From assembly GCA_020746835.1 (NCBI GenBank), contig JAGPNK010000051.1:1-31612 (forward strand): a DNA stretch of 31,612 nt. The letters are read 5' to 3'. The DNA is from Stachybotrys elegans (lineage: Eukaryota > Ascomycota > Sordariomycetes > Hypocreales > Stachybotryaceae). The position numbers and the translations under genes were made by a program. Below the pieces are notes generated by a model that ran no database searches, was not told the origin of the DNA, and worked only from the letters and a program-made list of their open reading frames with translations. Shown piece by piece: positions 1 to 20,103 of this stretch (positions are counted from its first letter, which is position 1; each line of letters opens with the position of its first letter).

Positions 1-66
1 TCTAAACTTTAGCTCTTTCCAAACTGGGTCCAGTTTTGGCCCCGCGTGGCGCAGGCACAGTGCCTA
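1..66 (+). repeat. Left terminal inverted repeat of element A (outer end cut by window)
   Basis: The block TCTAAACTTTAGCTCTTTCC, then a GGTCC...TTTTGG...CCCC motif and GTGGCGCAGGCACAGTG, recurs inverted at 7168-7262. It also occurs at both ends of element B (14596-14690 and 19333-19427). Confidence 0.85.
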
Positions 67-223
67 GCTTGCCTCTGTAAGTACCTGCGACGGTGAGGCA
101 TTAACAACTAAGTTGGTGCCTCAGACACGAACATTGGACAATCATCTGGAACTGGACAGGCGGCCATTTCTGCCTCCTACAACATAGCGCTTCAGCATCG
201 ACTCCAAAGTGCTTTGTTCCCTA

Positions 224-1219
224 ATGGCACCACGACTGACCCCCGAGAAGCGTGACAAGGTTTGTGCTCTACTCCTTGATAATGTTCCCATTCGAGACAT
301 CGCCCAAATGATCCCTTGCACCGAACGCAGCGTCCGTAGAATCCGAGCGACCGTAGAACGATATGGAACTACGACAACACCCTCGAACCGTACCGGCCCC
401 GACCCCAATATAACTCCCTTGATGCGTGAAGCGCTGCGGAAGCGTTTGGATAAGGAGCCTCATATGCGACGTCGTGACATGATTGCCTTTCTCCGCAAGA
501 CTTACCAGGTGGATGTGTCGCCTGCGAACATCACTCGAGCCTTGCAATCTGCGGAGTGGACACACAAGAACACACGCCGCATCGCGCGACAGCGAAGACC
601 AGAGCTGCGACACTTTTACCAGTATAGACTGAAGCGCGGAGGCTATAAGTCGTACCATTTGATCTTCATTGATGAGTCTGGTCTCGATAGAAGTATCGGG
701 GTCCGAAAGAAGGGATGGGCTCCTAAGGGCATCACTCCAGTTCAGACTGCGCACTTCCAGCGTGAAGAACGATACCAGATACTTGCGGCATACACCCAGA
801 GAGGCATCAAACTGTCTCGTGTCTATCGTGGAACTACTGATACTGCTACCTTCTTAGACTTCATCGAGCAGCTGCTCCATCACTGCGGGAAATGGCCCGA
901 GCCAGAGTCTGTTCTCGTCATGGACAACGCTGCGATCCACTGCTCAGACGAGATTAAACAGATGTGCGATCGAGCTGGTGTAAAATATGAGATGACAGCA
1001 CCCTACACACCAGATACAAATCCTATTGAAGGCTACTTCGGACAGCTAAAGGCCTACGTGAAGTCACGTTGGGATGAACATATCGGCCTCATCAGGAAGG
1101 ACTTCGGAGAATACGTCAAGTCATGCGTAAAGGCTACTGGGGCTCTGCAAACTAGTGCCGAGGGTCACTTCCGGAAGGCTGGGCTAACCATCGAGCCGTC
1201 ACCCCTGCAGTCATCATAG
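224..1219 (+). CDS. DD34E Tc1/mariner-type transposase, element A
   Basis: 331 residues, intact. The start is the ATG at 224 (MAPRLT...), chosen because the transposases of elements C and D begin with the same MAP(R/Q)LT motif at the same spacing from their TIRs. The N-terminal ~120 residues form a helix-turn-helix DNA-binding region with basic RRIR and RRIARQR segments. The catalytic domain shows D150 in IFIDES, D234 in VLVMDN and E269 in NPIEGYF. There are 34 residues between the second Asp and the Glu, so this is a DD34E enzyme as in Tc1-type elements. The KKGWAPKGITP block is typical of the IS630/Tc1 group. It would cut at the TIRs and integrate at TA. The gene is convergent with the companion gene, with 46 bp between stop codons. 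The remnant in element B is closely similar over its first ~30 codons. Confidence 0.93.
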   Translation: MAPRLTPEKRDKVCALLLDNVPIRDIAQMIPCTERSVRRIRATVERYGTTTTPSNRTGPDPNITPLMREALRKRLDKEPHMRRRDMIAFLRKTYQVDVSPANITRALQSAEWTHKNTRRIARQRRPELRHFYQYRLKRGGYKSYHLIFIDESGLDRSIGVRKKGWAPKGITPVQTAHFQREERYQILAAYTQRGIKLSRVYRGTTDTATFLDFIEQLLHHCGKWPEPESVLVMDNAAIHCSDEIKQMCDRAGVKYEMTAPYTPDTNPIEGYFGQLKAYVKSRWDEHIGLIRKDFGEYVKSCVKATGALQTSAEGHFRKAGLTIEPSPLQSS

Positions 1220-1265
1220 CACTCATACACATGCAGCGCACTCTGGCTAAAACACGAACTCATTT

Positions 1266-2591
1266 CTATGCGTTGAAAGTTTCCTGCGCCCAGTCCTGAA
1301 TATCCCCGACAAAAGATAAAGCAATGCCCAGCTTGACGCCCTGTTTGGTATAGAAGTCAACATCATTGGTTGTATAAACATGCCTTAGATCAAGGCAGTC
1401 CTTCCTAGTAATCTGGTATGGCTCCCAGAAGCCCGCCTTCCATGTCGGACTATCGACCTTGCTGCACTGCCACTGGTAGTACTCTGTCAGAGCCTTATCT
1501 CTTGACAGTGGAATCACGAGTTTGGCATGATCGGTTTGGGCTACGATGGTGCCGTCAAAGCCTGTTCCAGCGTTCACCACATCATCGCCGGAAGTGTGGC
1601 TTTGATGCCCTGGGCACATGATGCTTATGTTGATGGGAGGCAGGCTTCCTGATCTTTTGCGCTTGAGCTCTTTGCGTTCTGCAGTTTCTTCAGCATGTTT
1701 ATAGATCAGCTGGCGAATGTCCTCAGGCGCGTCATTATGTGTTCTTAACACCTTGCCCTCCTCGGCATGGTCAACAAGCTTATCGAGGATATTGGTGTCA
1801 AGTTTATAGTGTTTCTTGCTTTCCGGGTCACGCCAGCAGTAGAATTGGTTGTTGGTGCATGGAACTCCTGTGCAATGGAATAGGGCATAGACCTCCTTCC
1901 AGACAGGTCTTGTCCCAGATTCTTCCTCTTGCTGAGCCAGGAGTCGGTCCCTGGCATTCAGCTGCCTACCTGTAGCACCCCGACCATTCTGCTGCGTTAT
2001 TACGTTGGTCGATTGGATGATCTCCCTGTAAATAAAGCATATATCGATTCTCAGCTTATTGCCATCTTCGAAAAAAGGACCCCAGGCTCGTATTTTATTC
2101 TCGATGGGTTCCCAGTCTACGTGTAGCCCGTCGTCCTGTAGCTTGAGCTTCTTTTCGCCACGCTTCGTGGTTGATACGATTATCGTTGTCTCGTAAGGCT
2201 CGTATTTCGCGCCTGGCAGCTTGGCTTCTACCATCTTTGCCAGTGCCAGACAAAGGTACTTCTCCCAGTACGTGCTGGGTGCTAAAGTAAGGTTCTCTTC
2301 TGTGATCTCGGCGAGCGTCGTGGACTTCTTGTTCTTTCTGAGCTGTAGTTTCCACTCAATATCATAATGAATGCATGTAGGGTTCAAGCCATCGTCCTGG
2401 AAGTCAGAGTTCCAATCACTTAACTGGAGTAGGGGTAGCGATCCTTGACCTCGTCTGGGAGGGTTCTGACTCTGCTCGCTGGGTCTTGTACTGGGACTGC
2501 CAAAGTCAGGTAGCACGGGAGTGCCATAGTTGAACTCGAACTGGCTTGCATCATAAGCATACATAAAGCTATCATCGGGCGGCGAGCACAT
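1266..2591 (-). CDS. Transposon companion protein of unknown function, element A
   Basis: 441 residues from the ATG at 2591; a second in-frame ATG ten codons in is possible. I recognise no named family, but the proteins at 20104-21306 and 22824-23999 are clear relatives. Conserved parts: an acidic or aromatic N-terminus with a PDFGSPS-like motif; a domain at about residues 75-195 with hydrophobic I.W.L.LRK and VSTTKRGE blocks; a Cys cluster C240, C245, C252 inside W..VY.LFHC....C......YCW; a basic KRKR stretch at 310-313 that could be a nuclear localisation signal; and a C-terminal helical, SAM-like segment at about 385-440 ending G(I/V)..GIA..FV..I..W. Stops of this gene and the transposase face each other 46 bp apart. 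Its start shares a 302 bp intergenic region with the NLR cargo. A DNA-binding or regulatory partner of the transposase is my guess only. Confidence 0.85.
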   Translation of the reverse strand: MCSPPDDSFMYAYDASQFEFNYGTPVLPDFGSPSTRPSEQSQNPPRRGQGSLPLLQLSDWNSDFQDDGLNPTCIHYDIEWKLQLRKNKKSTTLAEITEENLTLAPSTYWEKYLCLALAKMVEAKLPGAKYEPYETTIIVSTTKRGEKKLKLQDDGLHVDWEPIENKIRAWGPFFEDGNKLRIDICFIYREIIQSTNVITQQNGRGATGRQLNARDRLLAQQEEESGTRPVWKEVYALFHCTGVPCTNNQFYCWRDPESKKHYKLDTNILDKLVDHAEEGKVLRTHNDAPEDIRQLIYKHAEETAERKELKRKRSGSLPPINISIMCPGHQSHTSGDDVVNAGTGFDGTIVAQTDHAKLVIPLSRDKALTEYYQWQCSKVDSPTWKAGFWEPYQITRKDCLDLRHVYTTNDVDFYTKQGVKLGIALSFVGDIQDWAQETFNA

Positions 2592-2893
2592 GATTCACGA
2601 TGATGGGGTGGCAAAAGGAAAGCGATCCGAAAGCCCCTGACAGATGCATGCGAGGATGGCTTGCATGCAAGACTCGCATGAACGACGACGACACGTAGCA
2701 GCATGGCTGCCTGGAATGCACGTGATACTGCTGAGGGTCTTCTGTCAACCTGTCGCACCAATCATGAAAAGCTACGGCCGCGTAGTGGATCAATCAATCT
2801 CTCGCTGTTGCCTAGCTTACCCCGCCGAAGCTGGCCTGTCCTCACAAGTCTCAAGCTTAAGCAAAGGCCTCAAACCTACAATGCCATTCCGTC
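2592..2893. promoter_or_regulatory. Shared divergent promoter region of companion gene and NLR
   Basis: The only sequence between the divergent ATGs of the companion gene (2591, minus) and the NLR (2894, plus) of element A. A homologous stretch lies upstream of the NLR of element B (about 18835-19085), where the companion is lost, so the NLR-proximal part is conserved. No clear TATA box was seen. Confidence 0.5.
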
Positions 2894-5800
2894 ATGGAAG
2901 GGCTCGGCGCCGCGGCTAGCGTCATCGCCGTCGTCGACATATCGGCTAAGATCGCTTCGATATGCTCCCAATACATCAAAGACGTTAAGAATGCCGAAAA
3001 TGACGTGCGGCAACTTCTGCAGGAAGTCAACAATCTCCATGCAATTGCAGAAGACATCAATGGCCTGCTTAACGGTCCTCATTCCGCGAAGCTAAAGAGC
3101 TCGCAGAAGCTGGAAGCTGGGCTCAAAGATAGCTCACATAAACTTCAAACGTTGGAGAAGAAGCTTGAAGGACTCAAGCAGAAGCTTCAACCAGGAGGAA
3201 CACGGCACAAGATCAAAGCCCGCCTCGGACTTACGGCCTTAAGATGGCCTCTCAGCAACCAAGAGATGGAGAAGGATGTCCAGGACATTGCACGCTACAC
3301 GCAGACACTTTCCCTGGCGTTACAGCAAGACCATCTGTGAGACATAACTATCCTCGTTAAACATACTCTTTCGAGCTAACAGGAAGGTCGATAGTGCCAT
3401 TTCCTTGAACACTGATCAAGTTGTTGTGCTCGACCGGCTTCCTGTCGCTAAAGGTGCCTCGTTTAACTCGCATGACGAAGAGTCGAATCCGATCTGCCTT
3501 GAAAATACGCGGGTGGAGCTCCTCGATCAAATATTAGGATGGATTGACGATCCTAGCGCCAAAGCACTCTTTTGGTTGAATGGCATGGCTGGGACGGGAA
3601 AATCAACCATATCGCGGACCATAGCTTGCTCGCTCTGTCGGACGAACCGCCTTGGTGCCAGCTTCTTCTTCAAAAGAGGAGAGGCTGATCGAGGAAATGC
3701 CACTAAGTTAATGCCGACGATAGCCCGCCAGCTGGCAGATAAAGACCCGAGGTTAGCTCCAATGCTTATGAAGACAATCGAAACAGACTCAACGATACCG
3801 GGCTCAGCCATCCAGGAGCAGTTCCAGAAGTTGGTCTTTGAGCCCTTGTCGGAGATCAATCTATCGGGTCCACTCGTCATTATTATAGATGCGCTGGACG
3901 AATGCGAAGGCGATGATAAGATTAGAACCATCATTCATCTCTTTACACGCATACAGTCTCAATATATACCTTGGCTAAAAGTCTTTATAACCAGTAGGCC
4001 AGATTGGCCGATCCGCCCTGGTTTCGCAAAGGCACAGGGCACCTACCAAGATTTCATTCTTCACGAAATCAGATCCGACATTATCGAACATGATATCTCG
4101 ATATTTCTAGAACATGAGTTCCGATCGATACGGGATGAGTATAACCTTACGGTAGTAGAAACACGGCTACCTCCGGAGTGGCCAGGCAATTCGAGGATCG
4201 AAGCTTTAGTGGATCTCTCTAAACCACTTTTCATCTCTGCCGCAACGGCTTGCCGCTTCATCTCTGAGCGCAGACATGGCCACCCTGACGACTTACTCAA
4301 GGAGGTTCTTGCACATCGAGGCAAAAGTGCAAGCTCTGGCCTCAGTGCGACATACTTGCCAATCTTGAATCGACAGCTGATTGGTATCCAATCGAAGCAA
4401 AAGAAGGAGGAGATTATCCAGCAATTTCGAAAAATTGTTGGCACGATCGTGACTCTTGAAAGCCCTCTTTCGAGCTCAGCCCTAGCGCGATTGTTGAACT
4501 ATCCACAAGCGACTATTAGCGTAAGGCTGGATATGCTCCATTCCGTCTTGCATGTTCCCTCTTGGTCAACGGGCCCCATACGCCTACTCCATCTGTCTTT
4601 CCGGGATTTTCTAGTCGACCCTGAAACACGGGATGAAACACCGCTTGGAGTAGACGAGAAACAGATGCATCAAAACACAGTGGCAAGTTGCCTCCGCGTT
4701 ATGAAGGAAAGTCTTCGAAGGGATATATGCGATTTGCAAATACCAGGAATTGCTCGATCCGATATAAATCAGCAAACAGTAGGTAACCATATTCAGCCAG
4801 AGCTTGAATATGCCTGCCTTTACTGGGTCGATCACCTAAACAAAGGAGACAAATACATCTCAGATGATGAACTTCACCTGTTCCTCTCCAGCCACCTGCT
4901 ACACTGGATTGAGGTACTAAGCCTAGTAGGGCGGGCATCAGAGAGTCTTGGAATTCTACGAACATTGCGTTCTGTTTTACAGGTGCGTTCTGCTCATCTT
5001 AATTGAACAGAAAAGGATACTTATTGCTATAGAAGCCCCAGAAGAGCGAAAAAGCATTAATACTACTTGATGATGCTATCCGCTTTACCCTTACCTATCT
5101 ATCCACTATTGATTCTTACCCGCTTCAAATCTACGCTCTTATTGCCTTCTTACCACTCAAAAGTCCTATACGAAAGGTGCTCCTAGAGAGTCAATGGGAT
5201 TGGTTATCTATCTCTGGTATTTCAGAACAGAACTGGGATTCATGCCTGCAGACGCTGGAGGGCCATCGCGACGCGGTAAGGTCGGTGGTGTTCTCGCCGG
5301 ATGCGAAGCATCTTGCATCGGCCTCGGATGATCGGACCGTTCGGGTCTGGGATGCCGCGACCGGCCAATGCCTACAGACGCTGGAGGGCCATAGCGGCTG
5401 GGTAAACTCGGTGGTGTTCTCGCCGGATGCGAAGCATCTTGCATCGGCCTCAGGGGATAACACCGTTCGGCTCTGGGATGCCGCGACCGGCCAATGCCTA
5501 CAGACGCTGGAGGGCCATCGCGACGGGGTAAGGTCGGTGGTGTTCTCGCCGGATGCGAAGCATCTTGCATCGGCCTCGGATGATCGGACCGTTCGGGTCT
5601 GGGAGGCGGCGACCGGCCAATGCCTACAGACGCTGGAGGGCCATAGCGACGCGGTAAGGTCGGTGGTGTTCTCGCCGGATGCGAAGCATCTTGCATCGGC
5701 CTCAGAGGATAACACCGTTCGGCTCTGGGATGCCGCGACCGGCCAATGCCTACAGACGCTGGAGGGCCATAGCGACTGGGTAAGGTCGGTGGTGTTCTCG

Positions 5801-6709
5801 CCGGATGCGAAGCATCTTGCATCGGCCTCAGAGGATAAGACCGTTCAGCTCTGGGATGCCGCGACCGGCCAATGCCTACAGACGCTGGAGGGCCATCGCG
5901 ACGCGGTAAACTCGGTGGTGTTCTCGCCGGATGCGAAGCATCTTGCATCGGCCTCGGATGATCGGACCGTTCGGGTCTGGGAGGCTGCGACCGGCCAATG
6001 CCTACAGACGCTGGAGGGCCATAGCGACGCGGTAAGGTCGGCGGTGTTCTCGCCGGATGCGAAGCATCTTGCATCGGCCTCAGAGGATAAGACCGTTCAG
6101 CTCTGGGATGCCGCGACCGGCCAATGCCTACAGACGCTGGAGGGCCATCGCGACGCGGTAAGGTCGGTGGTGTTCTCGCCGGATGCGAAGCATCTTGCAT
6201 CGGCCTCAGGGGATAACACCGTTCGGCTCTGGGATGCCGCGACCGGCCAATGCCTACAGACGCTGGAGGGCCATCGCGACGCGGTAAACTCGGTGGTGTT
6301 CTCGCCGGATGCGAAGCATCTTGCATCGGCCTCGTTGGATAAGACCGTTCGGCTCTGGGATGCCGCGACCGGCCAGTGCCTACAAATCTTCAATACTGGA
6401 GTGATATCTCGGCTATTATTTACTCCAGACGGCTCCCACCTACAGACAGGCACCGGGATTCTAATGATAGAGAGCACTCACTTATCGCGCCTACCACCTA
6501 ACCTACCTTTGGATATCAATAACCCTATCCTATCAGGATGCGGGCTGGATGAAGATGGCTGTTGGATTACATGGGACGGGGACAAGAAACTGTGGTTGCC
6601 GGTAAACTTCCGGCCAACCTCCGGAAACAGCCTCGCTGTCTCAGAATCCAGAGTAGTAATTGGTTCTCCATCTGGACGAGTCACTTTTATCTGTATATCT
6701 AATGCGTAA
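2894..6709 (+). CDS. NACHT-WD40 STAND NLR protein, cargo of element A
   Basis: Three exons, 2894-3336, 3395-4982 and 5033-6709, give an uninterrupted 1235-residue protein. The introns have GTGAGA and GTGCGT donors. The first acceptor (GATAG at 3390-3394) lies 14 bases after a CTAAC branch motif and matches the only in-frame acceptor in the element B copy. Residues 1-148 are a helical N-terminal domain of the type seen on fungal STAND proteins. The NACHT domain has Walker A GMAGTGKST (K217) and Walker B IIIDALDE (D313). Residues 748-1125 are nine 42-residue WD40 repeats, followed by a ~110-residue tail with an ITWDG...LWLPVNFRP motif. The architecture resembles fungal NLRs of the HET-E/HET-D type, which act in non-self recognition. 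No HET domain is present; the N-terminal helical domain would be the effector. The gene lies inside the transposon TIRs. Confidence 0.92.
5243..6376 (+). repeat. Nine tandem 126-bp WD40-encoding repeats
   Basis: Each unit starts at the TGC of CLQTLEGH (5243, 5369, 5495 and so on, every 126 bp) and encodes one WD40 blade. The units are almost identical in DNA. They differ at a few codons only: the two to three residues after LEGH (RD, SG, SD; A, W, G), the R/N before SVVF, the residues before TV (DDR, GDN, EDN, EDK, LDK), R/Q after TV, and the V/L and D/E around the W. Variation confined to blade-surface positions is the known signature of recognition repeats in fungal NLRs. Confidence 0.93.
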
Positions 6710-7167
6710 TCAATGTAAAAACTAATAACTTCTGCATTGATTAATAGAAGATGTTGTTTTGTATAATAAATCTGCTTCGGAGGGTCACAGGGGAGCTCCT
6801 GATTATATGCATTGGTCTCATGTTCTAGAATATTCTGGTGGACCAAGCTGAGCCATTAGCCACAATGTTCATCCTTCTCGACTGGCGGCACTAAGGAAAA
6901 TTCTGGAAAATAGGGCGTGATTATTCTGTTCCATGTGAAAGGGCAGGAAGCAGTACCATTATCAGAACCTCCAATCGCTGCGCTCGGTGTAAGGGATCGC
7001 GATGGCATTACTGCTTGGAATATTAGCTTAAAATATACTATTCCATTGAAGCAAAAACCCGCTTACTCTTTCTTCCTAGGGCTTAGTCATGAGATCCCCT
7101 TTTATACCTAAGGCATAAAAAGTTGGCTGTTAGAGGTAGAGGACTTAAGAGACCTCCGTCAGCAAAC
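6710..7167. other. Non-coding 3' tail of element A between NLR and right TIR
   Basis: No supported gene. Parts are recognisable inverted in element B (14690-15130), for example a GAATATTCTAGAA-like segment and a GGGCTTAGTCAT segment. The tail therefore belongs to the cargo-carrying element. Confidence 0.6.
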
Positions 7168-7262
7168 TGCACACTGTGCTTGCGCCACGTGGGACCAAAA
7201 ATGGACCAGTTTAGGAAAGAGTTGAAGTTTAGATTAGCGGACGCTGAACCTGAACCTCACTG
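7168..7262 (-). repeat. Right terminal inverted repeat of element A
   Basis: Read on the minus strand from 7262 it begins CAGTGAGGTTCAGG, reaches AGCGTCCGCTAATCTAAAC, and then the GGTCCATTTTTGG and GTGGCGCAAGCACAGTG blocks shared with 1-66. A TA dinucleotide follows on the outside, as expected for a Tc1/mariner insertion. Confidence 0.85.
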
Positions 7263-7264
7263 TA

Positions 7265-8134
7265 TTAACACCTACCATAATAAGTTGAAATTTATATTTA
7301 GGAGCATAAACTATACCTAGAGCTACTTCTAGCTCCCTGTATATATGGCTTAGCATAATCCTCTAGCCTTGGCTAGTTTAAGTTGCTTTTTGTCTAATAA
7401 CTGCAATTTAGACCATTGTAGGGACATTCGATGCAATATCAACTCCTGACTCCAAGTTATTTCACCTGATGTTAGGCATCCGTCCACTTTAGCATTAGGG
7501 TATGGAAGAGTGGTATTGGGTCCAAATCGGCATAGTGGTTCAATAAACCCTGTACACCTACGGCCTTTTCCCATGTTGAGTGTAGCGTAGAGATATGGTA
7601 GAATGCATGAAATGATTTTAATTTACTGTTATTACATGCATATATATACTATAACCACAGTATACAAGTACCGGCTGTATACATAGTAGTCGTGATCTGC
7701 GTTAGCATTTCATGAATACCGGTACCGGTACTAATGCGCTTTCTATACAAGCTAAAAGATCCATAATGTGTCTGCTATCGTGTGACATTATCTAAGTACT
7801 AAATCCACTTCTGGGTATAAAATCCAATTTTGGCTCCTGAACATCACTGAGTAGGAACTCAGCGCTCAGGCCCACCCACAATAGCCACTATTAGCTCTTG
7901 TAATCAAGGGCAGTGCAGGCAGTCTCCATTGCGCCCTGGGGAAGGTGGATGTTTCAATCCAGTGATCTTTACCGGTTGCATTGGGTCAGGCAACATGTAA
8001 TAAGCCATTACTGGTTATTATACAATTGGACTATATGTAGCTCCTATCCATGTCTCTATACATAATGATAGAAAGGGTAATCATATGGCTTTCAATTCTA
8101 TATTGGTTCTTCATATAGCACCTTGCTTTGCAAT
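7265..8134. other. AT-rich intergenic stretch without supported gene
   Basis: The stretch holds only short open frames with no recognisable motif, plus scattered TATATA runs and an ACCGGTACCGGTAC motif near 7720. It is the right flank of element A. Confidence 0.5.
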
Positions 8135-8491
8135 ATGTCGCTTAATCAACATGGAATGGAAAAGAAGAGGGACAGAAGCAGCGAAAATTTCAAAAAAAGA
8201 TGGCACACCTTTGCAAGAAATGGATTCCGTGTTCACAAGTCCTATCATGCCGACGTATATATCCTTCTACGTCGTAAAGGGCAGATATATGAATTTAAAT
8301 CTACCGAGCGAGCATGGCCGCTACAACCCGAGGATATTGTATGCTTTATTGGCCTTTGGTTCGAGTGGCTTTGCTAACTATAGGGTCAGGAAAGTTACTA
8401 TCCAGTACCTATTCAGATTACGGCAGCTACTATAGCTTCTCTGGGGGAAAAAAGGCAGTGCAATTCAGACGAAAAAAATTGTATAACTTAG
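8135..8491 (+). CDS. Small MADS-box-like protein, two exons
   Basis: Exons 8135-8338 and 8384-8491 encode 103 residues. The 45-nt intron has a GTATGC donor, a GCTAAC branch site and a TATAG acceptor, and the frame is kept in phase 0. Residues ~15-55 (FKKRWHTFARNGF...ADVYILLRRKGQIYEF) follow the MADS/SRF pattern of FKKA.EL...C.A.V.LII...GK.YEF, although the usual N-terminal basic arm is short. MADS-box proteins are DNA-binding transcription factors. This one is much shorter than typical fungal Mcm1 or Rlm1 and has no activation region. The start ATG at 8135 is the first in frame; a later one lies eight codons in. The family call rests on motif resemblance only. Confidence 0.55.
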
Positions 8492-8605
8492 ATTATAATA
8501 AGTAACATTTAATCTCAGTAGCTTGCATAAAAATAAGAAAAGAAAAAGAAAAAGATAAGGGTCTGTAATACTTGGAGTTATAGAATCCTATACTTGTTTT
8601 CTCGT

Positions 8606-8950
8606 TTAAACTCCTTTACTTATGGTGGTCTTGAGGTCTTTCTCTTTGCTAGCCTTTGCTTTTAACTTTCTTTCCTCCCAAGTTTTCAACATCTCTTGAC
8701 TTAGGTTTTCCTTCGGCTCTAAAGTTGGTGCCCAGAATACTTTGAACTTCTTAACGCCATTATGCAAAACTTCATCGACTACTTCCCCCTCCCACTCGAA
8801 ATAGAAGAGAGGATTTCCATTAGGGTCGAATTCGGTAAAGGTAGCATCTGGTGCGTTCATGCCTAAGGCGGCGTGGTCATGTGTATGACTCAGACTGGGC
8901 ACGACTGAGTCAGATACAGGTGCCGAGCTCCCTGGGTTAACAAACGCCAT
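8606..8950 (-). CDS. Small protein with chromo-like domain
   Basis: 114 residues from the ATG at 8950, which has a good context (CTAAAATGGC). An upstream in-frame ATG near 9019 would add a hydrophobic stretch and is less likely. Residues ~45-105 contain W.GEVVDEVL...VKKFKVFWAPT.EP.ENL....L..WEERK, which follows the chromodomain pattern of a V..I/VL strand pair, an aromatic K..W strand, a WEP-like turn and a C-terminal helix. The first canonical aromatic residues are not certain. Such short chromo-like proteins can come from retrotransposon integrase tails, but no reverse transcriptase or integrase is seen nearby. The lysine-rich end could be nuclear or DNA-contacting. The function is unknown. 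Confidence 0.5.
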   Translation of the reverse strand: MAFVNPGSSAPVSDSVVPSLSHTHDHAALGMNAPDATFTEFDPNGNPLFYFEWEGEVVDEVLHNGVKKFKVFWAPTLEPKENLSQEMLKTWEERKLKAKASKEKDLKTTISKGV

Positions 8951-9037
8951 TTTAGGTAAAGACAGAGAAATGGATAAAGGTTGATAGGGCGCCCAAAATA
9001 CCAAAGCGGGTAGGCACATGCGTTTATAACTGCTCAA

Positions 9038-9452
9038 CGAATGCTTGGTGCACGGTATGCTCCATTTTTCTTAAAGAGCCAGAAAGGGCCCGCAAGCTTA
9101 CAATGTGGATATGACCTCTGAACCCCGGAGCCTACCACGACGTACTGCAATTAGTGGGTCAGTATCTATTGTAAGTATCGCTTGCAGTTCATTACCTCCT
9201 TAAGCCAAAGAGCCAGAATCAGCTCTTTGGCTTTTGCAGTCCATGCATATCAACATCCAACATTCCAAGTAGGCGTGTATTTATATATATACAGTGTGCT
9301 GTATGTATATTTGTATGTACTGTATATTGAATATACATACAGAGGAGTCTGAAAATTCACTGCATATTATCCGTATGCAGCACGTCGAACCCAGCAGATT
9401 TCACTCTGAACCAACTGTAACCTTCTGAAAAAGGCTCCCGCTAGAAAGAGAC
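9038..9452. other. Intergenic stretch with a TA-rich palindromic patch
   Basis: No gene seen. Positions ~9279-9342 are rich in TATATACA, TGTATGTA and similar words and could fold back. I could not match them to any TIR in the window. Confidence 0.4.
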
Positions 9453-9905
9453 TTACTGCAACTTTGCTAGTGAAGAATGTAAAATAATAGCTAAGCTACT
9501 ACCAGTAAGGACTGACAGCATAGTGGCAAGGATAGAAGTCTGAAAGATTGCAATACCCGCAACAGTTACCAATAGTGTGTAAGGTTGCGTACTCAAGGCC
9601 CCCTGCCAACCGAAAAATCGAAGGAAATTGTCGGTCTTGCCTCCAACTCGTACGCAAGCGGTCATAAAGATAGCGCTGCTGAGTAGTTTCCAGTGACTAA
9701 GGAGAGAGTATGTAATAGCTATCACAAAAACAGCAAAATAATGTTTCGAAAAATGAGAGAAATTGCGTGTCATACGTAGTTTCCAACTGATCAAGTTTAC
9801 AGGAGTTGACATTTCTTTAATGTCCAAAAGTTCAATGACCAATTCCAGGCTTTTCCGAAGATACGATGAAACTTTCAAAATGCTAATAAAGGTGTTTTCT
9901 GACAT
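9453..9905 (-). CDS. PRA1-family (prenylated Rab acceptor) membrane protein
   Basis: 150 residues from the ATG at 9905. Residues 25-75 carry a LLD....STPVNL.....R...NFSHFSKHYFAVFV....YSLLS pattern that matches the conserved entry region of PRA1/Yip3 proteins. Four hydrophobic segments follow, at about 57-70, 72-87, 108-121 and 124-144, arranged as the two helical hairpins usual for this family. PRA1 proteins sit in Golgi, ER or endosomal membranes and bind prenylated Rab GTPases during vesicle transport. Fungal members are usually near 160-180 residues, so this copy is slightly short at both ends. It may be a divergent paralogue rather than the housekeeping gene. It is divergent from the Cdc25-like gene, with 429 bp between them. 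Confidence 0.75.
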   Translation of the reverse strand: MSENTFISILKVSSYLRKSLELVIELLDIKEMSTPVNLISWKLRMTRNFSHFSKHYFAVFVIAITYSLLSHWKLLSSAIFMTACVRVGGKTDNFLRFFGWQGALSTQPYTLLVTVAGIAIFQTSILATMLSVLTGSSLAIILHSSLAKLQ

Positions 9906-10334
9906 GTTTGCTGTACAGTAATTCTTTCTGGCTTGACCGGGTATATGTAGACCATCAAAGTAGCAATCGATGTCGTGGTATTTATGTATTTGTCACGAGG
10001 CTGACGTGGGAATATCCCGTCGTCCAAAACTAGCCTCGCCCAAGACCCACCCCTTCTCCAGCTATACCCGTAGTACCTATTACAGTAAGAACCTCGAACG
10101 AGGGACAGGTGCCATAATTGGCTCTTCAGGCTCAACCAGGCTGAGTATATCAAAACGGCTTTTGCGCGTTCCACTTCAGCAGTAGTGTATATGAATAAGT
10201 CCTTAACAGTAGTAAGTGCATTGTCTCTTCTGGTTCCTCAATCTGTTCATCTTCATCTTTCAATCCACGGTGCCATTGTTCAATTCTAGGACGAATGCAC
10301 ACGAGCTTGTCGTGAGCAGCCTCCAAAAGTCAGA

Positions 10335-10865
10335 ATGTCGGAACTCGATGAGCGTCATGTCTACAAGTTACCTCATACCAGCAACGAAGATGATGTCTTC
10401 CCGCGAATTTCTCTGGAAACAATGTTCAACGTCATGCAAGGCAATTACCGAGATAATTACGACCGATCTATTATCGTTGACTGCCGATTCGACTATGAAT
10501 ACAAGGGTGGACACATCGATGGTGCTGTCAACTTCAGCCATGAAGAGTTGCTCATCAGCCACTTATTTTCAGCCCCTACAGTTGGATGCACATTGCTGAT
10601 CTTCCATTGCGAGTACTCGAAATTAAGGGCACCGACTATGGCATATCATATTCGAGCAAAGGATCGCAATGAAAACAGTGGACAATATCCAAAGCTTAGC
10701 TTTCCGGAAATGTACATCCTGGATGGAGGGTACAATGCTTTCTTTAATCAGCACTTTGATAGCTGCATACCTAGAGGCTATGTTGGGCTGGATGCCGAAG
10801 AATATACAGCTGTGCGTGACCTCGAGCTGGCTCGCATCCGGCGTGCCATGAAAGGTCGCTCTTAA
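10335..10865 (+). CDS. Cdc25-like rhodanese-fold phosphatase, catalytic domain only
   Basis: 176 residues from the ATG at 10335. A DCRF.YEY.GGHI.GAVN block (residues 49-66) and an IFHCEYSKLRAP block (89-100) are the two hallmark motifs of Cdc25 phosphatases. The catalytic HCX5R loop is complete, with C92 and R98. The C-terminal YILDGGYNAFF...C.PRGYV segment also matches Cdc25. Full-length fungal Cdc25/NimT proteins have a long regulatory N-terminus that is absent here, so this is a stand-alone catalytic domain, or a gene whose 5' exons I cannot see. The substrate could be a CDK; some Cdc25-like mini proteins act as arsenate reductases. The frame is intact with no stops. Confidence 0.8.
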   Translation: MSELDERHVYKLPHTSNEDDVFPRISLETMFNVMQGNYRDNYDRSIIVDCRFDYEYKGGHIDGAVNFSHEELLISHLFSAPTVGCTLLIFHCEYSKLRAPTMAYHIRAKDRNENSGQYPKLSFPEMYILDGGYNAFFNQHFDSCIPRGYVGLDAEEYTAVRDLELARIRRAMKGRS

Positions 10866-11324
10866 CACCTATTAGAAGCTTCCGGTGGAGCCTTGAGTCA
10901 ACGTCGTTAATGGTAGACTACGGTATTGACTACTGCTATACTAGGTATCTAACCTCAAAATACAAACTACAAACTACAACCTGCAACTGCATTATTCTTA
11001 TTGTGATGTTCGATCTGGGAGCTGAAGGTTAACATTGGAGAGTGTAGTTTATCCAAAGCCCCCCAAAGACTCCTCGGAGATGGATCTCACATTTTAAACG
11101 TGGAAATAGTAAATAAATAGAGGGGAGATGGTTCATGATTCATCTCACATTCCCGTCCAAGACTTATCAAAGAAAGGCAATCAAATTCCCAACGGTCTAC
11201 CTACTCAATACATACTTTCTTTTTCTTCAACAAGCTTGTTACATACATACCTACTGTATGTATATACTAGGAAGTAAGCTTTTGGAACCATTAACGCTCA
11301 CCCCTCCGACATTCTACATGGATG

Positions 11325-11740
11325 TCACTTTTCCATGAACCGTCCTTGTTCCTGCCTGAGTAGTGCTGTGAGATCCTTAATAGCATCTGTAAGATCCCGG
11401 AAGGTTGCATTTGATGTAATACAGCTGCAGCAGTTTTTGCACCGATGCTCCATCGACCCTCTTTGCAGGTCTCCGTTGTAAAGCGTAGGCCTCCGTAACA
11501 TTGTGCGTCCTCGTCGATGTCGTGAAGGACTCTGATCATCTCCACTGGACAAAGGTGATCCTGCTGCCGGAGTTGGCATGTAGCTCTCGTCAGAGGCAAT
11601 AAAATGCTCAAGGCTGCCGGCACTGTCGCTTTCAACTTCTGTGTCGCTAGCTGATATACAGTATGACCTTAGTTTTCTAACCTAAAAAGCAAGGGAGCTT
11701 TTGTTACTGTACCTGTTGTGTCAGATGAGCAGGATGTCAT
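11325..11740 (-). CDS. Hypothetical spliced protein with Cys cluster and C-terminal helix
   Basis: Exons 11740-11713 and 11650-11325 join across a 62-nt intron (GTACAG donor, TATATCAG acceptor) to give 117 residues. The N-terminal half is Ser/Thr/Asp-rich and probably disordered. Then come an RHRRGR basic run, a HRCKNCCSC cysteine cluster, and a helix-like end (LTDAIKDLTALLRQEQGRF). The frame stays open upstream of this ATG to a second possible acceptor at 11780, so another 5' exon may exist. It would overlap the relic transposon end F, where I find no in-frame start. The family is not recognised. It could also be the tail of a truncated gene. Confidence 0.4.
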
Positions 11741-11859
11741 TGTGGCGGTTGTACTGGCAATGCTATCAAAACGTTTGCGCTGTTAAAGTAAGGAAGACGA
11801 ACATACTGGGTCTAGAGCTACTATATAGAGCAATACTCACCGTCGAGAAAGCGCAATTT

Positions 11860-12310
11860 TTGGCTCTTAGTCATCATATAAGTCAAAGATATGATACTAT
11901 TGAAAAGCCAGTGTCCGGCATGACGTCCTGGGAGAGCAAAGGCGCGAAAAGGCGATAAATGAGAACACAAGTGGGAGAGGCAGAAAGAGGGGAGGACAGA
12001 GAGAGGGGGGACAGAGAGTGGGCGAACAGAGAGAGGGAGAGCAGGGAGAGGGAGTGTTAGAGGGTGGGGGGTGGGGGTGGGGGGGTGGGCAGAAGGTAGA
12101 GGGCGTGTGATCTGTTAGAGCCGTTTTTAGATGTCATCTTACCTAGCAATTGGAACTGCTCGTGGGGTTGCTCACGACAAAAATGGGGACCCGGTGGGGT
12201 ATTTATATTGCTAAAGCTAAAGATCGAGATGACAGGGTATGCACACTAGATGCACTGTAGTGTAGCGGTGGTACAGCGGTTTGGTGAAATCCATGGTTAG
12301 ATCGTCATCC
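11860..12310 (-). mobile_element. Relic F: decayed companion-gene end of a C-like element
   Basis: Read on the minus strand, 12260 to 11860 matches the left part of element C in order: an ACACTACAGTG patch, TCATC.CGATCTTTAGCTTTAGCA, a TATAAATACC box, GTAAGATGACATCTAAAAA.GGCTC, a long pyrimidine tract, and a start region reading ATGCCGGACACTGGCTTTT (ATG at 11921). The companion frame then carries a one-base insertion and stops, and similarity ends near 11860. The outer TIR at about 12310 is no longer recognisable. It is a dead fragment with no transposase. Confidence 0.75.
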
Positions 12311-12931
12311 ACGGCTTCTGGAAATATGAGCCAGAGTACGGGCTGCTACGTTCTCTAATTTGCCAATTCCGTGTGATTAACCTAGCAGGGATTGCAGGTG
12401 AAGAAGCCAACTGCCTGCAGCCTGTTCTCGATTTAACCCCTCTGTTACTAGTTTCCCTGAAGATCGCTTCATTGGTATTAAAGATAGATATATGCTGTAA
12501 ACGTAGGGACGCTGCGACTAAAGCGGGCGATGACTCGAAGTGCGACGTAGGCCTCGGGACCGGCGCGTAGGCGTCTTAGGGTCCAGTTGTTAACATGACA
12601 TGTGTGTAGAGATGATCATAACCTACATCCTGCAGGGGGCGACGTGACCCTGAATGTGTTCTTTGGCGTCATTGGCGCCGAATAGGTTGTGTGCGTGCTC
12701 ATAGTGACTTACAATGCTTACCATGCAGGTCAAATTTGGGGAACAATGCCAGAGTATTTAAAGTTGTCCGTAAAAGCTAAATTTGGCTACCACTGATTAC
12801 TGGTATTCCCAAGTCCCCACCTCCGAACCAGGCATCCAATTCGACACATACCGCACTGCATCACGGCGAGCTACGTATGGGTGCCAAATAGTTGGCCAAG
12901 GATCTTTTGAAAGAGTAACGATGTGTGTTGA
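12311..12931. other. Intergenic stretch without supported gene
   Basis: Short open frames only, none with a recognisable motif. It lies between relic F and the 3' end of the GH64-like gene. Confidence 0.5.
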
Positions 12932-14257
12932 TCAGTCTACAAATGTACATCCGCTTGCAGGTGCCCCAACGAAAATAGTTAAAGTGTCTGCGGCTCCAGA
13001 AGAGAGTGTACCAGAAGCGTCCTCGTGATCCGGGTTGACGTCATCGTAGGCGTAAGTATAGCCCTTCCCATCAATTTCATACTTGTGTACCAGACGGCTG
13101 TAGTGGTTCGTTGGATTTGCCCGATAGTACTGGGAAGAATCTACGCTAGGTTGTATATTCCCATATTCTAGGAGGAGAGTAGAGCGCACAAAAGCAGAAC
13201 ATAGCCGTGGGATAACAGCAGTGTGTATGATGTTATCGCCATCCATCTTGCCAAACGGACCACTATCACATCCCCAGATGTCCAGGGCCGTAGGCTTTTC
13301 GTAGTCACGATTATCGCCATCACAGGTGAGGAGAGTTGCAGTAACTCGGCATGTGATATTGCCAGCCTCTGTTTGTGTATTGATAGTTAAGGGTGTGGTG
13401 GCATAGTATTCCCAGACCCGGTCGATGTACCGACTCCAGTAGTGCTCAAAATCGGTGGGGTTGACCATACTGTACTGGCTTGGAGAAAGAACACGGATAG
13501 GTCTTCCGAGCTCATTTACAACGCAAAGGTTGCTCCAGGGAAAGCCGTCGGTATTGGTCTGGATAGCAAGCTCCCTACATATGTCTGCAACGGCAGCTGG
13601 GCGCAGGCCACATGTGATCTGTGTCTGACTGCCATCGAGAACAGTGAGCTGCATGCCTAATACCATTCCAACGAAGTCAACGAGGCTGAGGTTAGCATAT
13701 AGCGTTAAATCAGCAGTGTATGTCAGTTCGACAAATCCCCAGCTCAAGTCAAAACTCGAATCGTTGGGGTCAATTGCTGAGGGATGTATCAGGCCATCTC
13801 CGTTAGGTGTATTAATGACATAAAAGTTGAGTCTACCCTCGCAAAAATATATTCGGGCTGAGGTGATAGATCTTGTCAGGTTTACTTCTATGGACTCTCC
13901 CTTCTGGGGCAGGGAGATAGCAACACGTTCGGATATTGAGACGGGTACATGCGAGCCTCCAGAACTGGGGTAGATGAGGGTCCCATCAGCAGCAACAAAG
14001 ACAATTGCGTTGTTAGAGTCTAGTCCAGTCAAATAAGCATGAACTTGAGCACCTTCAAAGTTGTTCACAAATTGTACAGATAGTGGTTTTGATGTGGCAC
14101 CCTCTCCCCGTCGAACCGCCTCTGAAGGGAATAAGTAAGAGTCCTTGATGATGTCTTCCTCTTCTAAAGTAACGTTTTGAATACCTCTAGGGCGTGCAAT
14201 TGTGATATTATTGATGCTATTGGCTTGGCTACCGTTAGCAATATTTGAGAGTGCCAT
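12932..14257 (-). CDS. GH64-type beta-1,3-glucanase / thaumatin-like fold protein
   Basis: 441 residues, single exon, from the ATG at 14257. The sequence follows fungal GH64 proteins: an LSVQFVNNF...AYLTGLD start of the beta-barrel, a WGFVELTY...DLTLYANLSLVDFVG core, and a C-terminal YYRANPTNHYSRLVH...GKGYTYAYDDVNP block. GH64 enzymes cut beta-1,3-glucan using a Glu/Asp pair. E177 and D194 sit in the expected core segment, but I cannot confirm the exact pairing by alignment. No N-terminal signal peptide is visible, since the first 25 residues are polar. The protein is therefore either cytosolic or missing a 5' exon. Its substrate would be cell-wall glucan, self or from another fungus. Confidence 0.75.
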   Translation of the reverse strand: MALSNIANGSQANSINNITIARPRGIQNVTLEEEDIIKDSYLFPSEAVRRGEGATSKPLSVQFVNNFEGAQVHAYLTGLDSNNAIVFVAADGTLIYPSSGGSHVPVSISERVAISLPQKGESIEVNLTRSITSARIYFCEGRLNFYVINTPNGDGLIHPSAIDPNDSSFDLSWGFVELTYTADLTLYANLSLVDFVGMVLGMQLTVLDGSQTQITCGLRPAAVADICRELAIQTNTDGFPWSNLCVVNELGRPIRVLSPSQYSMVNPTDFEHYWSRYIDRVWEYYATTPLTINTQTEAGNITCRVTATLLTCDGDNRDYEKPTALDIWGCDSGPFGKMDGDNIIHTAVIPRLCSAFVRSTLLLEYGNIQPSVDSSQYYRANPTNHYSRLVHKYEIDGKGYTYAYDDVNPDHEDASGTLSSGAADTLTIFVGAPASGCTFVD

Positions 14258-14478
14258 TTGTATTGCGTATAAAGCCCAGGAAGGCAGACACCCTAAGGTG
14301 CATTAGACAAGACTAGGAAAGAGAGAAAGGGGAATGACTGGCTAGCTTGCTCTAGTCTTTGCCTGTATAGGAGCAAAATATGGCCTTGCGTAAAACAGAT
14401 ACACAATAGCCGTTTTATAAATATGAACAGTATATTTATATATACATACATACATACACATTACTATTAATTTTATAG

Positions 14479-14593
14479 GTTATCTTAGGTATACCTAGAA
14501 AAAGTACTGGATGGGCACCTAATCCAGTATTGGAGGCTTATACTAGCTTATTAGGAACAGAAGAGAGCATTGTTCTTTTGTACGAACTAAATG
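14479..14593 (+). pseudogene. Host membrane-protein gene, fragment 1 (left of element B)
   Basis: An open frame of 38 codons (from GTT at 14479 to AAT at 14590-14592, then the first base of the next codon) reads into the left boundary of element B. A TTTTATAG acceptor-like site precedes it and no ATG is present, so earlier exons are missing or unrecognised. The predicted peptide runs naturally into the fragments at about 19430-19494 and 25299-25822. Confidence 0.5.
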
Positions 14594-14595
14594 TA

Positions 14596-14690
14596 AGTAG
14601 AAGTCAGGTTTAGCGTCCGTCAATTTAAACTTTCACTCTTTCTAGAAGGGTCCATTTTTGGCCCCGCCTGGCGCAGGCACAGTGTGTGGC
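14596..14690 (+). repeat. Right terminal inverted repeat of element B
   Basis: It shares TCAGGTTTAGCGTCCG, GGTCCATTTTTGGCCCC and TGGCGCAGGCACAGTGTG with the ends of element A. The terminal C of CAGT is absent, so the end reads TA then AGTAGAAG. Confidence 0.8.
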
Positions 14691-15130
14691 TTGCTTCCAG
14701 AAGTCTCTTGAGTCCCTTACCTCTAACAGCCAGCTTTTAGTGCCTTAGGCATTAAACGAATTTTATGACTAAGCCCTGGGAAGAAAGAGTAAGCGGAATA
14801 AATGATCTAGCAACATTGCCATCGTGATCACTTATACCGAGCGTAGTGGTTGCAGGGTTCAACAATGGTACTGCCTCCTGCCTTCTCGTACATATGGAAC
14901 AGTATACTCATGCCGTATTGTCCAGAATATTCCTCAGTGCCGCCATTTAAGAAGGATAAACATCGTGGCTAACGGCTCAGTTTAGTGCACTAGAATATTC
15001 TAGAATATGAGATCAATGCATATAATCAGGAGCTCCCCTATGACCCTCCCAAGCAGAGTTGTTTTACAAAATAATATTTTCTACTAACCAATGGAAGAAG
15101 CTATTAGTTTTACATACGCTATACAGTAGT

Positions 15131-18100
15131 TTAAGTTAGCTTATCTGTGTATATACAGATAAAAGTGACTCTTCCAGATGGAGAACCAATTACCACTCTG
15201 GATTCTGAGATAGCGACACAGTTTTGGGGGGCTGGCCGGAAGTTCACAGGCAACCACAGTATCTTGTGCCCGCCCCATGTAATCCAATAGCCATCTTCAT
15301 CCAGCCCGCATCGTGATCGTATTGGGTTGCTAACATCCAAAGGTAGGTTGGATGGTAGGCGCGACAAGTGAGTAATATTTATCTTAAAAATCGTGGTGTC
15401 TGTGTATAGGTGGAAACCGTCCGTAGTGAATGATAGCAGAGATGTTGCTCGAGCGTTGAAAATTTGCAGACACTTGCCGGTCGCGGCATCCCAGAGCCGA
15501 GCGGTGTGATCCCATGAGGCTGATGCAAGATGCTTCGCATCCGGCGAGAAGACTACTGACCTTACCCCGTTGCTATGGCCCTCAACTGTCTGGAGGCATT
15601 GGCCCATCATGGCATCCCAGAGCCGAATGGTATGATCCCATGAGGCCGATGCAAGATGCTTGGCATCTGGCGAGAAGACCACTGAATATACCCATCGGCT
15701 ATGGCCCTTAAGTGTCTGGAGACATTGGCCGGTCACGGCATCCCAGAGCCGAACAGTCTTATCACCTGAGGCTGATGCAAGATGCTTTGCATTCGGCGAG
15801 AAGACCACTGAGTATACCCCGCCACTATGGCCCTCAAGTGTCTGCAGGCATTGGCCGGTCGTGATATCCCAGAGCCGAACAGTCTCATCATGTGAGGCTG
15901 ATGCAAGATGCTTTGCATCCGGCGAGAAGACCACTGAGTATACCCCATCGCTATGGCCCTCAAGTGTCTGTAGGCATTGGCCGGTTGTGGTATTCCAGAG
16001 CCGAACAGTCTTATCATCCGAGGCTGATGCAAGATGCTTTGCATCCGGCGAGAAGACCACTGAGTATACCCCATCGCTATGGCCCTCAAGTGTCTGCAGG
16101 CAGTGGCCGGTCGTTGTATCCCAGAGCTGAACGGTCTCATCATGTGAGGCTGATGCGAGATGCTTTGCATCCGGCGAGAAGGCCACTGACCTTACCCTAT
16201 CGCTATGGCCCTCAAGTGTCTGTAGGCATTGGCCGGTTGTGGTATTCCAGAGCCGAACAGTCTTATCATCCGAGGCTGATGCAAGATGCTTTGCATCCGG
16301 CGAGAAGGCTACTGACCTTACCCAGTGGCTATGGCCCTCAAGTGTGTGCAGGCATTGGCCGGTCACGGCATCCCAGAGCCGAATGGTGTGATCATATGAG
16401 GCCGATGCAAGATGCTTCGCATCCGGCGAGAAGGCCACCGAGTTTACCGGACTGGTATGACCCTCAAGCGTCTGCAGGCACGAATCCCAGTTCTGTTCCA
16501 TAGTCCCAGATACAGACAACCAAGCCCATTGTGCCTTTAAGAACACCTTTCGTATAGGGCTTTTGAGTGGTAAGAAGGCGATAAGAGCGTAGATTTGAAG
16601 CGGGTAAGAGTCAATAGTTGACAGATAGGTCAGGCTAAAACGGAAAGCATCATCAAGTAGTAGCAATCCTTCTTCGTTTTTCTGCGGCTTATATAGCAAT
16701 GAGTATCTTTTGCTGTTTAATTAAGATAGGCAGAACGCACCTGTAAAACGGAACGCAATGTTCGCAGAATGCCAAGGCTGTCCGATGCCCGCCCTACCAG
16801 ACTCAGTGTTTCAATCCAGTATAGCAGGTGGCTAGAGAGGAACAGGTGAAGTTCATCACCCCAGATGTGTATGTCTCCTTTCTTTAGGTGATCGACCCAA
16901 TAAAGACAGGCATATTCAAGCTCCGGCGGGATATGGTAAATTATCGTTTGCTGATCTATATCGGATCGAGCAATTCCTGGTCTTCGCAAATCGCACATAT
17001 CCCTTCGAAGCTTTTTCTTCATGAGGCGGAGGCAATGGACCACTATATCTTGATGTATCTGCTTCTCGTCTATCCAAAGTCGTGTTTTCTTCCGTGTCTC
17101 AGTATCAACTAAGAAATCCCGAAAAGATAGATGAAATAGGCGTACAGGATCCTTCGATGACATAGGAACATGCAGAACTGAATGAAGCATCTTCAGTTGA
17201 TCGACAATCATGGCTTGTGAAACGCTCAGCAATCCCTCCAGAGCCGAGATCGAAAGGGGACTCTCAAGAGTAATAATGATGCCGACAAGCTTTCGAAGCT
17301 GTTGAATGACTTCATCTCTCTTTCGTTCCGATTGAATACCGACGATTTGTCGATTCAATATTGGCAAGTACGTCGCATCGAGGCCGGAGGTTGCACTCTT
17401 GCCCTTGTACACCAAAATCTCCTCGAGAAGCTTGTCAGGGTGGCCATGACTGGGCTCGGAGATGAATCGACAAGCAGTTGCGGCGGAGATAAAAAGTGGC
17501 TTTGCGAGGTCCACTAAAGCCTTGATCCTGGAATCGCCCGGCCAGTCCGGAGGTAGCCGTGTTTCCACGACCGTAAGGTTATAATCATCCCGTATCGATC
17601 GAAACTCGTGTTCTAGAAATACCGAGATATCGTGTTCGATAATGTCGGATCTGATTTCGTGAAGAATGAGATCTTGGTAGGTGCCCTGTGCCTTTGCGAA
17701 CCCAAGGCGGATCGGCAAATCCGGCCTGCTAGTCACAAACACTTTCACCCCGGGTATTTGTGGAGACTGCATGCGCGCAAAGAGATGGATGATGCTTCTA
17801 ATCTTGTCATCGCCCTCGCATTCATCTAGTGCATCCACAATGATGACAAGTGGGCTCGACAGAGTGATCTTGGACAAGGGCTCAAAGATCAACTTCTGGA
17901 ACTGCTCATGCATAGCTGACCCCGAAATTGTCGAGTCTTTCTCGATTGTGCTCATCAACATCGGCGCTAAGCTCGGCTCTTTATCTGCCAGCTGGCGGGC
18001 TATCGTCGTCATGAACTTGGTGGCATACCCTCGATCAGCCTCTCCTCTTTTGAAGAAAAAGCTGGCACCGAGGTGTTTTGTCCCAGACAACGAGCGAGCG

Positions 18101-18834
18101 ATGGTCCGTGATATGGTTGACTTTCCCGTCCCAGCCATGCCATTCAACCAAAAGACTGACTTGGCGCTAGGATCGTGAACCCATGCTAGGATCTGGTCGA
18201 GGAGCTCCACTCGCGTATTTTCAAGGCAGGTTGGATTCGACTCTTCGTCATGGGAATTAAACGAGGCACCCTTGGCGATAGTAAGCCGGTCAAGCACCAC
18301 AACCTGATCAGTGTTCAAGGCAACGGCACTATCCAATGTTTCTGTTAGCTCGAAGGGTCCTGTAAGTGTGATAAGGATAATCGTGACTCACAGATGGTCA
18401 TGCTGTAGCGCCAGGGAAAGTGTCTGCGTGTAGCCTGCAATCTCCTGGACATCCTTCTCCACCTCTTGGCTGCTGAGAGGCCATCTTAAGGCAGTGAGTC
18501 CAAGACGGGCCCTAATCTTATGCCTTGTTCCTTCTGGTCGGAGCTTTTGCTCGAGCTTTTCGAGTTTCCTCTCCAAGGCTTGAAATTTGCATAAGCTGTC
18601 TCGGAGCCCGGCCTGCAGCTTCTGGGAGCTTTTAAGCCTCGCGGCAGTAGGACCGGTGAGCAGCCTGTCGATGTCTCCTGCGATCGCACCAAGATTATTA
18701 ACCTCTTGCAGGAGTCTCTGTACATCGCTCTCAGCATTCTTGACGTCTTTGATGTATTGTGAGCATATCGAAGCAATCTTGGCCGACAAGTCGACGACGG
18801 CGATAATACTAGCCGCGACGCCGAGCCCTTCCAT
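15131..18834 (-). CDS. NACHT-WD40 STAND NLR protein, cargo of element B
   Basis: Exons 18834-18392, 18328-16741 and 16687-15131 encode 1195 residues. The first two exons have exactly the same length as in element A. The first intron (GTGAGT...GGATAG) is in frame only with the distal acceptor. The second ends in ATAAG. The domains match A: helical N-terminus (49 of the first 59 residues identical by eye), Walker A GMAGTGKST (K217), Walker B IIVDALDE (D313), then eight 42-residue WD40 repeats (747-1082) and the ITWGG...LWLPVNFRP tail. All motifs are intact, so the gene may work although its transposon is disabled. It probably acts, like related fungal NLRs, in ligand sensing and triggering of cell death or defence. 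That role is inferred from architecture. Confidence 0.92.
15473..16480 (-). repeat. Eight tandem 126-bp WD40-encoding repeats
   Basis: Unit length and register are the same as in element A (CLQTLEGH start), but the units differ from each other more. The residues after LEGH are TSP, SHW, SDR, SDG, SDG, SGG, SRW and SNG. Before the T they are YDH, DDK, HDE, DDK, HDE, GDK, WDH and WDH. The repeat pool hardly overlaps with that of element A. Confidence 0.92.
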
Positions 18835-19084
18835 GACAGAATGGCTTGGTGGGTTTGAAGTCCCTGCTTACCCTTTGGACTGGACTGTGAGGACGAGCCA
18901 GCTCTGGCGGGGTAGTTTAGGCTACGGAGTAAGAGTAAATTCAGCTCCCTTCTCATGATTGGCGCGATAAGGATAAGTGAGGCGATCTGTGTCACGTGCA
19001 TCATAGGTAACCATGCTGCCACGTATCATCTGTTCGAGTCATCCACATGCGGGTCAGCTCTCGCAGCCAGGCGTTCGTCAAGAG

Positions 19085-19175
19085 TGCACGGGATCGTTTG
19101 GGCGATGTCCTTGATCGGGACATTATCCAGGAGCAGAGCATAAACCTTCTCCTTCGGAGTTAGTCACGGGGCCAT
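19085..19175 (-). pseudogene. Transposase 5' remnant in element B
   Basis: The ATG at 19175 begins MAP then a stop. In shifted frames the sequence continues as TPKEKVYALLLDNVPIKDIAQTIPCT, the counterpart of A's transposase residues ~6-32. Homology ends near 19085, where the sequence changes to the NLR upstream region. This is the internal-deletion junction. Confidence 0.8.
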
Positions 19176-19427: not shown

Positions 19428-19429
19428 TA

Positions 19430-19494: not shown

Positions 19495-19496
19495 TA

Positions 19497-20080: not shown

Positions 20081-20103
20081 CGCCTTTGCTCTCCCAAGAC
20101 ACC

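Follow-up and report, generated by a model that had tools for sequence, protein, structure and literature searches.

An NLR-type receptor gene as the probable third gene of a DD34E Tc1/mariner-type transposon family in Stachybotrys elegans

An NLR gene of Stachybotrys elegans lies inside a DD34E Tc1/mariner-type cut-and-paste transposon, where it is very probably a standing third gene beside the transposase and a companion gene. The window analysed here is the whole contig C47 (31,612 bases), and relatives were searched in the genome of 43.4 Mb in 61 contigs. Insertion at a TA dinucleotide as a whole unit, from one terminal inverted repeat (TIR) to the other, is seen for two members of the family, E and F. 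The N-terminal effector domain of the NLR also differs among copies sharing the NACHT-WD40 part and the TIRs, with a HeLo-like domain in elements A, B and E and a PNP domain in F and G.

Element A occupies positions 1-7262 of the window as a Tc1/mariner-type unit, and its large ORFs are those of the transposase, the companion and the NLR. An earlier note on this DNA had proposed an inverted-repeat pair enclosing these three genes, and the repeats were indeed found at 1-72 and 7162-7233, which are 81% complementary. Base 1 of the window is the end of the contig (C47:1). The alignment puts this base some 31 bp into the left TIR, so positions 1-72 (+) are the inner part of the transposase-side TIR, and the outermost ~31 bp and the left TA lie past the contig end, out of view. 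The NLR-side TIR (7162-7262, - strand) terminates in CACTG at 7262 and is followed by the target dinucleotide TA at 7263-7264, which corresponds in the alignment to C32:111974-111975, a site lacking an element; the CAGT terminus with a TA flank described in the note is thus confirmed. The transposase and companion genes are convergent, and the companion and NLR genes are divergent.

The transposase of A (224-1219, +; 331 aa) matches PF13358, DDE_3, at E 2e-26, and its catalytic residues D150, D234 and E269 have the DD34E spacing, in agreement with the complete DD34E transposase claimed earlier. For the N-terminal helix-turn-helix DNA-binding domain of the superfamily, HTH_32 scored 28.9 bits, under the cut-off of 33.7. 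The frame is complete and is 91% identical to the transposase of element E and 55% to that of element C. The frame in E lacks an ATG at the usual position, element B retains a relic (19074-19175, -) covering query residues 1-36, and the search of the genome gave no transposase match in F and G; therefore only A looks self-sufficient. By the usual thresholds, RIP-type indices do not seem to be elevated in the elements.

The companion protein of A (1266-2591, -; 441 aa) has homologues in elements C, D and E. It matched no Pfam family (the few matches up to E 10 lay at E 0.11-0.18, far under cut-off) and no PDB sequence up to E 1. An AlphaFold model built from three sequences reached a mean pLDDT of 60, and Foldseek found nothing similar to it at E <= 0.001 in PDB or BFVD; the TM to query was at most 0.17 among the best 50 of each list, a value meaningless at such confidence. 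As an impression from this model, the C-terminus may resemble a SAM-like helix bundle. The companion of element C enters alignment A1 at 20086, 18 bases ahead of its likely ATG at 20104. No relative was found in IMG/VR scans with the companion and the transposase.

The NLR of A (2894-6709, +) consists of a PigL_N domain, NACHT and nine WD40 repeats. The splice model has two introns (3337-3382 and 4983-5032) and three exons without a stop. The full NLR of the earlier note therefore stands with open frames, at a modelled length of 1239 aa instead of 1235. Pfam matches were NPHP3_N at 118.9 bits, NACHT at 36.0 bits and WD40 in nine stretches, the array being made of nine 42-aa repeats. The N-terminus matched PigL_N (PF17111) at 29.9 bits with a cut-off of 27.2, which we take to be a HeLo-like N domain. 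Each of the seven copies read (A, three copies of B, E, F and G) has open N-terminal, NACHT and WD40 frames; the model of the exon joins covers A, and a join from PNP to NACHT in F and G is putative.

When 681 aa of the A NLR, comprising its N-terminal and NACHT regions, were used to search the genome, at least 45 matches were obtained, with 65 of 81 candidates scored. Five loci, A, B, E, F and G, fell into one NACHT clade with support of 99/98 in a tree of 11 rows, in which long branches outside this clade were flagged. Element B (14596-19427, -; 4.8 kb) has both TIRs, an NLR with open frames (15131-18834, -; a PigL_N-type N terminus, NACHT and eight WD40 repeats) and the transposase relic, with no companion match; at its NLR-side end the initial C of CAGT is missing. 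Its copies in C47, C32 and C15 are read as probably a single insertion that was later duplicated together with its flanks. Elements E (C22:110025-125271) and F (C7:16846-22596) have both TIRs with TA at both ends. An unrelated insertion of 8.7 kb lies in E just inside the NLR-side TIR (C22:~110160-118881), and E without it would therefore be ~6.5 kb long. This insertion (L062, L078, L013) contains large ORFs of 837 and 1258 aa and is possibly a large transposon of another kind. Element G (C16:287117 onwards) has the NLR-side end, and no second end was visible up to C16:296500. The note had proposed to look for copies with the same TIRs and NLR; relatives with ends of the same TIR family and an NLR of the same lineage occur in this genome, with both TIRs in B, E and F. 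As for the left TIR and TA, E and F have the full set and B has both TIRs with one terminal base missing; in A the contig ends first.

The TIR ends are of two types, transposase-side and NLR-side. A genome-wide search with a 165-base query from the NLR-side TIR gave at least 16 matches, and the other ends of B and A were added by local BLAST of five end queries against fetched stretches. All seven ends classed as NLR-side (A, three copies of B, E, F and G) adjoin an NLR of the A/B/E/F/G clade. In A, B, F and G they lie ~0.5-0.6 kb beyond the stop codon, and the distance in E is stretched by the nested insert. Among the matches obtained, none of the NLR-side type lay at the other NACHT loci. 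Six of the 13 transposase-side ends belong to A, the three copies of B, E and F, two to the loci H and I, and the remaining five (J, K, X, M35, M7) stand alone, read on one side each, with no NLR detected there. At H (C5:1433172) and I (C7:5070), a transposase-side TIR and a transposase relic are followed by a NACHT_N-NACHT-WD40 gene (Pfam run for H only). These two loci were considered as further elements of the NLR lineage and dropped: reading as far as C5:1442000 and C7:13200 showed no second end, and in the tree their NACHTs join NLRs without a TIR match, apart from the clade of A. They are possibly a second NLR capture.

Empty sites demonstrate the movement of E and F. The joined flanks of E match C29:86147-86556 at 96% (query 1-400), where a single TA and no element are found; they also match C33:56153-56551 at 88% (query 1-388), known by the match alone. 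The joined flanks of F match C22:102190-102586 at 97% (query 1-400), again with a single TA and no element. The note looked to other strains for empty TA sites; for E and F this genome itself supplies them. Membership in Tc1/mariner is seen in these single TAs together with the TA at both filled ends, i.e. TA insertion with TA duplication, and in the TIRs at both ends of B, E and F and at the right and inner left ends of A. The empty sites miss exactly the stretch from TIR to TIR; hence the possibility raised earlier, that the TIR pair comes from two nested elements, is ruled out for E and F. For A, the evidence is one-sided because its left flank is not in the assembly. All 638 bases of its right flank match C32:111974-112611, where A is missing, and C29, C15 and C33 match at 86-87% from query base 20 only. 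The identical flank in C32 suggests a recent insertion of A, provided that C32 and C47 are not alleles or assembly duplicates of each other.

Two sister elements without an NLR lie in the same window, and their transposases and companions are homologous to those of A. Element C (19712-22588, -; 2.9 kb) has a transposase at 21334-22314 (-) and a companion at 20104-21306 (+), and its TA site is empty in C32. Element D (19497-25296, -; ~2.9 kb excluding the nested C) has a transposase at 24053-25021 (-) and a companion at 22824-23999 (+), and its site is empty in C15:357106-357110. Element C sits at different TAs in C32 and C47 (two filled/empty pairs) within surroundings 99.9-100% identical where compared, and its two copies are 94.5% identical. 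The different sites of C and the empty site of D indicate that these two-gene units have moved. The NLR lineage appears to derive from such units as a three-gene form. Fragments of the C type, 77-84% identical, were also noticed at 11863-12265 and 29965-30142. The relocation of C, and a TACAGT...TTTAGC-TCC-like motif common to the ends of C and A, would fit an explanation in which A-type elements are now non-autonomous and are moved only in trans by the two-gene C/D family. This explanation is rather unlikely, since the complete transposase of A is 91% identical to that of E with a dN/dS of 0.10 and only 55% identical to that of C, and the ends of A and C look different past the terminal motif.

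The NLR-bearing family is itself variable at the N-terminus of the NLR. The N termini of B and E are homologous to that of A (76-79% identical). Those of F and G match PNP_UDP_1 at 41.7 and 37.8 bits (cut-off 25.1), and their NACHT-WD40 parts have 86-88% identity to those of B and 83.5% to each other. The PNP domains of F and G are only 45% identical over 336 residues, and G retains a short decayed piece with 62.5% identity to the end of the F PNP domain over 32 residues, which together suggest a second replacement in G. The replacement probably proceeded from HeLo-like to PNP.

Divergence between A and E (Nei-Gojobori) was similar across the three genes: dN 0.056, dS 0.544 and dN/dS 0.10 for the transposase; dN 0.074, dS 0.657 and dN/dS 0.11 for the companion; and dN 0.113, dS 0.638 and dN/dS 0.18 for the NACHT exon. 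Ten pairs of the NACHT exon gave a dN/dS of 0.125-0.227 at dS 0.26-0.69, and three pairs of the HeLo-like exon gave 0.175-0.363. The similar dS values argue that the three genes have been joined since before A and E split; combined with the low dN/dS between A and E, they indicate that the NLR has moved along with the transposon while being kept by purifying selection.

The WD40 repeats vary most at paired positions. Among 44 units (A 9, B 8, E 3, F 12, G 12), which were chosen by motif pattern and a fixed 42-aa step so that some may be missed, the most variable of the 42 positions were 29, 11, 31 and 13, flanking the invariant V12 and D30, and 40 of the 44 units had distinct combinations at these four positions. 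In HET-D/HET-E, according to the available text of Paoletti et al. 2007 (PMC1805685), codons 7, 9, 25 and 27 are positively selected around the constrained 8 and 26. The positions found here share this spacing with an offset of four, as a statement about variability, not about selection. The NLR might instead be neutral hitch-hiking cargo, a resident gene captured once whose copies are passive and decaying, and a resident relative does exist at C4:1309609 (46% identical); moreover, only A looks complete, given the relic in B, the lack of a transposase in F and G and the missing start in E. We consider this quite improbable, because every copy read keeps its NLR frames open as the transposases decay, the NACHT exon keeps a dN/dS of 0.13-0.23 over dS 0.26-0.69 in ten pairs, and variability is concentrated at the WD40 recognition positions.

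The window segment 7263-26523 is duplicated at C32:111974-131224 and differs from it by the insertions of A and C. It is 99.9-100% identical where compared (7263-7900, and 13428-26523 without element C), and the offset is the same on both sides of 7901-13427, a stretch outside the comparison; the segment could be allelic or an assembly duplicate. These long near-identical stretches, the three copies of B that seemingly arose by segmental duplication, the five transposase-side ends without a detected NLR and the position of H and I upstream of NLRs of another group could suggest that the NLR spread by segmental duplication or ectopic recombination, with TIR pairs nearby merely because transposons cluster in a repeat-rich compartment, but this is highly improbable, being contradicted for E and F by the single-TA empty sites and opposed by the constant adjacency of NLR-side ends and clade NLRs.

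Other features of the contig were also recorded. A GH64 beta-1,3-glucanase ORF of 456 aa with a full Pfam match lies between the elements (12932-14302, -), a low-complexity repeat at 27080-27485 codes for PEPALVPEPTLV-like units on one strand, and an ORF near the contig end (30764-31282, -) has WD40-type repeats similar to the C-terminus of an additional NLR. A DUF3723 protein is encoded at 28285-29652 (-; E 8.5e-49). In the available text of PMC12506042, DUF3723 appears among the families of Starship accessory genes, and the contig may therefore lie next to a Starship or a remnant of one.

In the mechanism that we favor, the element's own or a related transposase would act on the TIRs, excise the unit and insert it elsewhere, perhaps assisted by the companion (found in A, C, D and E, with an A-E dN/dS of 0.11). 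The NLR, which is presumably a non-self or incompatibility receptor, may sense a ligand with the variable side of its WD40 propeller; a cell-death or incompatibility response would then be set off by the N-terminal domain. Selection on this response would keep the gene, and the element with it, in the population. More tentatively, the self-mobilising family may own the receptor: the NLR would be selected inside the element, its WD40 face would diversify, HeLo-like and PNP domains would be exchanged, and specificities would be seeded around, and perhaps between, genomes. In the strongest form of this proposal, cells without the element, or with rivals, would be killed or isolated by the NLR, which would thereby enforce the persistence of the element.

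Impala-type elements usually have one transposase ORF. The present elements resemble impala, a fungal Tc1/mariner element according to the part of PMC3599309 available, as Tc1/mariner elements with TIRs, and differ from it in having two or three genes, including the companion. The closest published case found is ToxTA (formerly ToxhAT) of Bipolaris, Pyrenophora and Parastagonospora, which is assigned to Tc1/mariner and carries a Patatin-TPR gene placed in the NLR family in the available text of PMC6737239 and PMC12506042. As in A, these sources describe TIRs, a TA target duplication, mobility and an NLR-type gene. Unlike A, ToxTA is 14 kb long with eight genes, including ToxA, and is called non-autonomous; as far as the available text goes, no NACHT or WD40 is named, the receptor is not linked to a transposase of its own, and no multi-copy NLR family or swap of effector domains is described. 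An NLR-type cargo on a Tc1/mariner-type element is therefore less new than the earlier note supposed when it knew of no NLR on a small element of this kind; for elements that code for a transposase, no such case was found in the open-access literature available in full or in part (including PMC9262711, PMC9594970, PMC10691877 and PMC4779268).

Starships also carry NLRs as accessory genes, and in the available text of PMC12506042 they measure, for example, 170-196 kb and have a DUF3435 tyrosine-recombinase captain. Their NLR cargo is the likeness to A, whereas A has DDE_3, TIRs and ~7.3 kb, and no DUF3435 tyrosine recombinase matched among the A proteins (for the WD40 part, among the best 25 of 65 families). 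The NWD/HNWD genes of Podospora (het-d, het-e, het-r) combine NACHT with a WD40 array under concerted evolution, with two variable residue pairs 18 apart (PMC1805685, available text). The present NLRs share the NACHT, the WD40 array and the paired variable positions, and have HeLo-like or PNP N termini in place of HET. One Podospora pseudogene, NWDp3, adjoins a transposon relic, and residence inside a transposon is not mentioned in the available text of that source. The apparently new observation is an NLR that a transposase-coding Tc1/mariner family carries as a standing gene, with exchanged effector domains; we found no precedent for it in the open-access literature searched.

To our knowledge, how fungi generate and spread large and patchy NLR and incompatibility repertoires is an open question. 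A TA-specific transposon of 5-7 kb with a constrained, diversifying receptor and exchangeable effectors would offer a simple physical route for NLR spread, and presence or absence of the elements in populations would make this route testable. Our findings suggest that immune-type receptors can be a transposon's genes rather than the host's.
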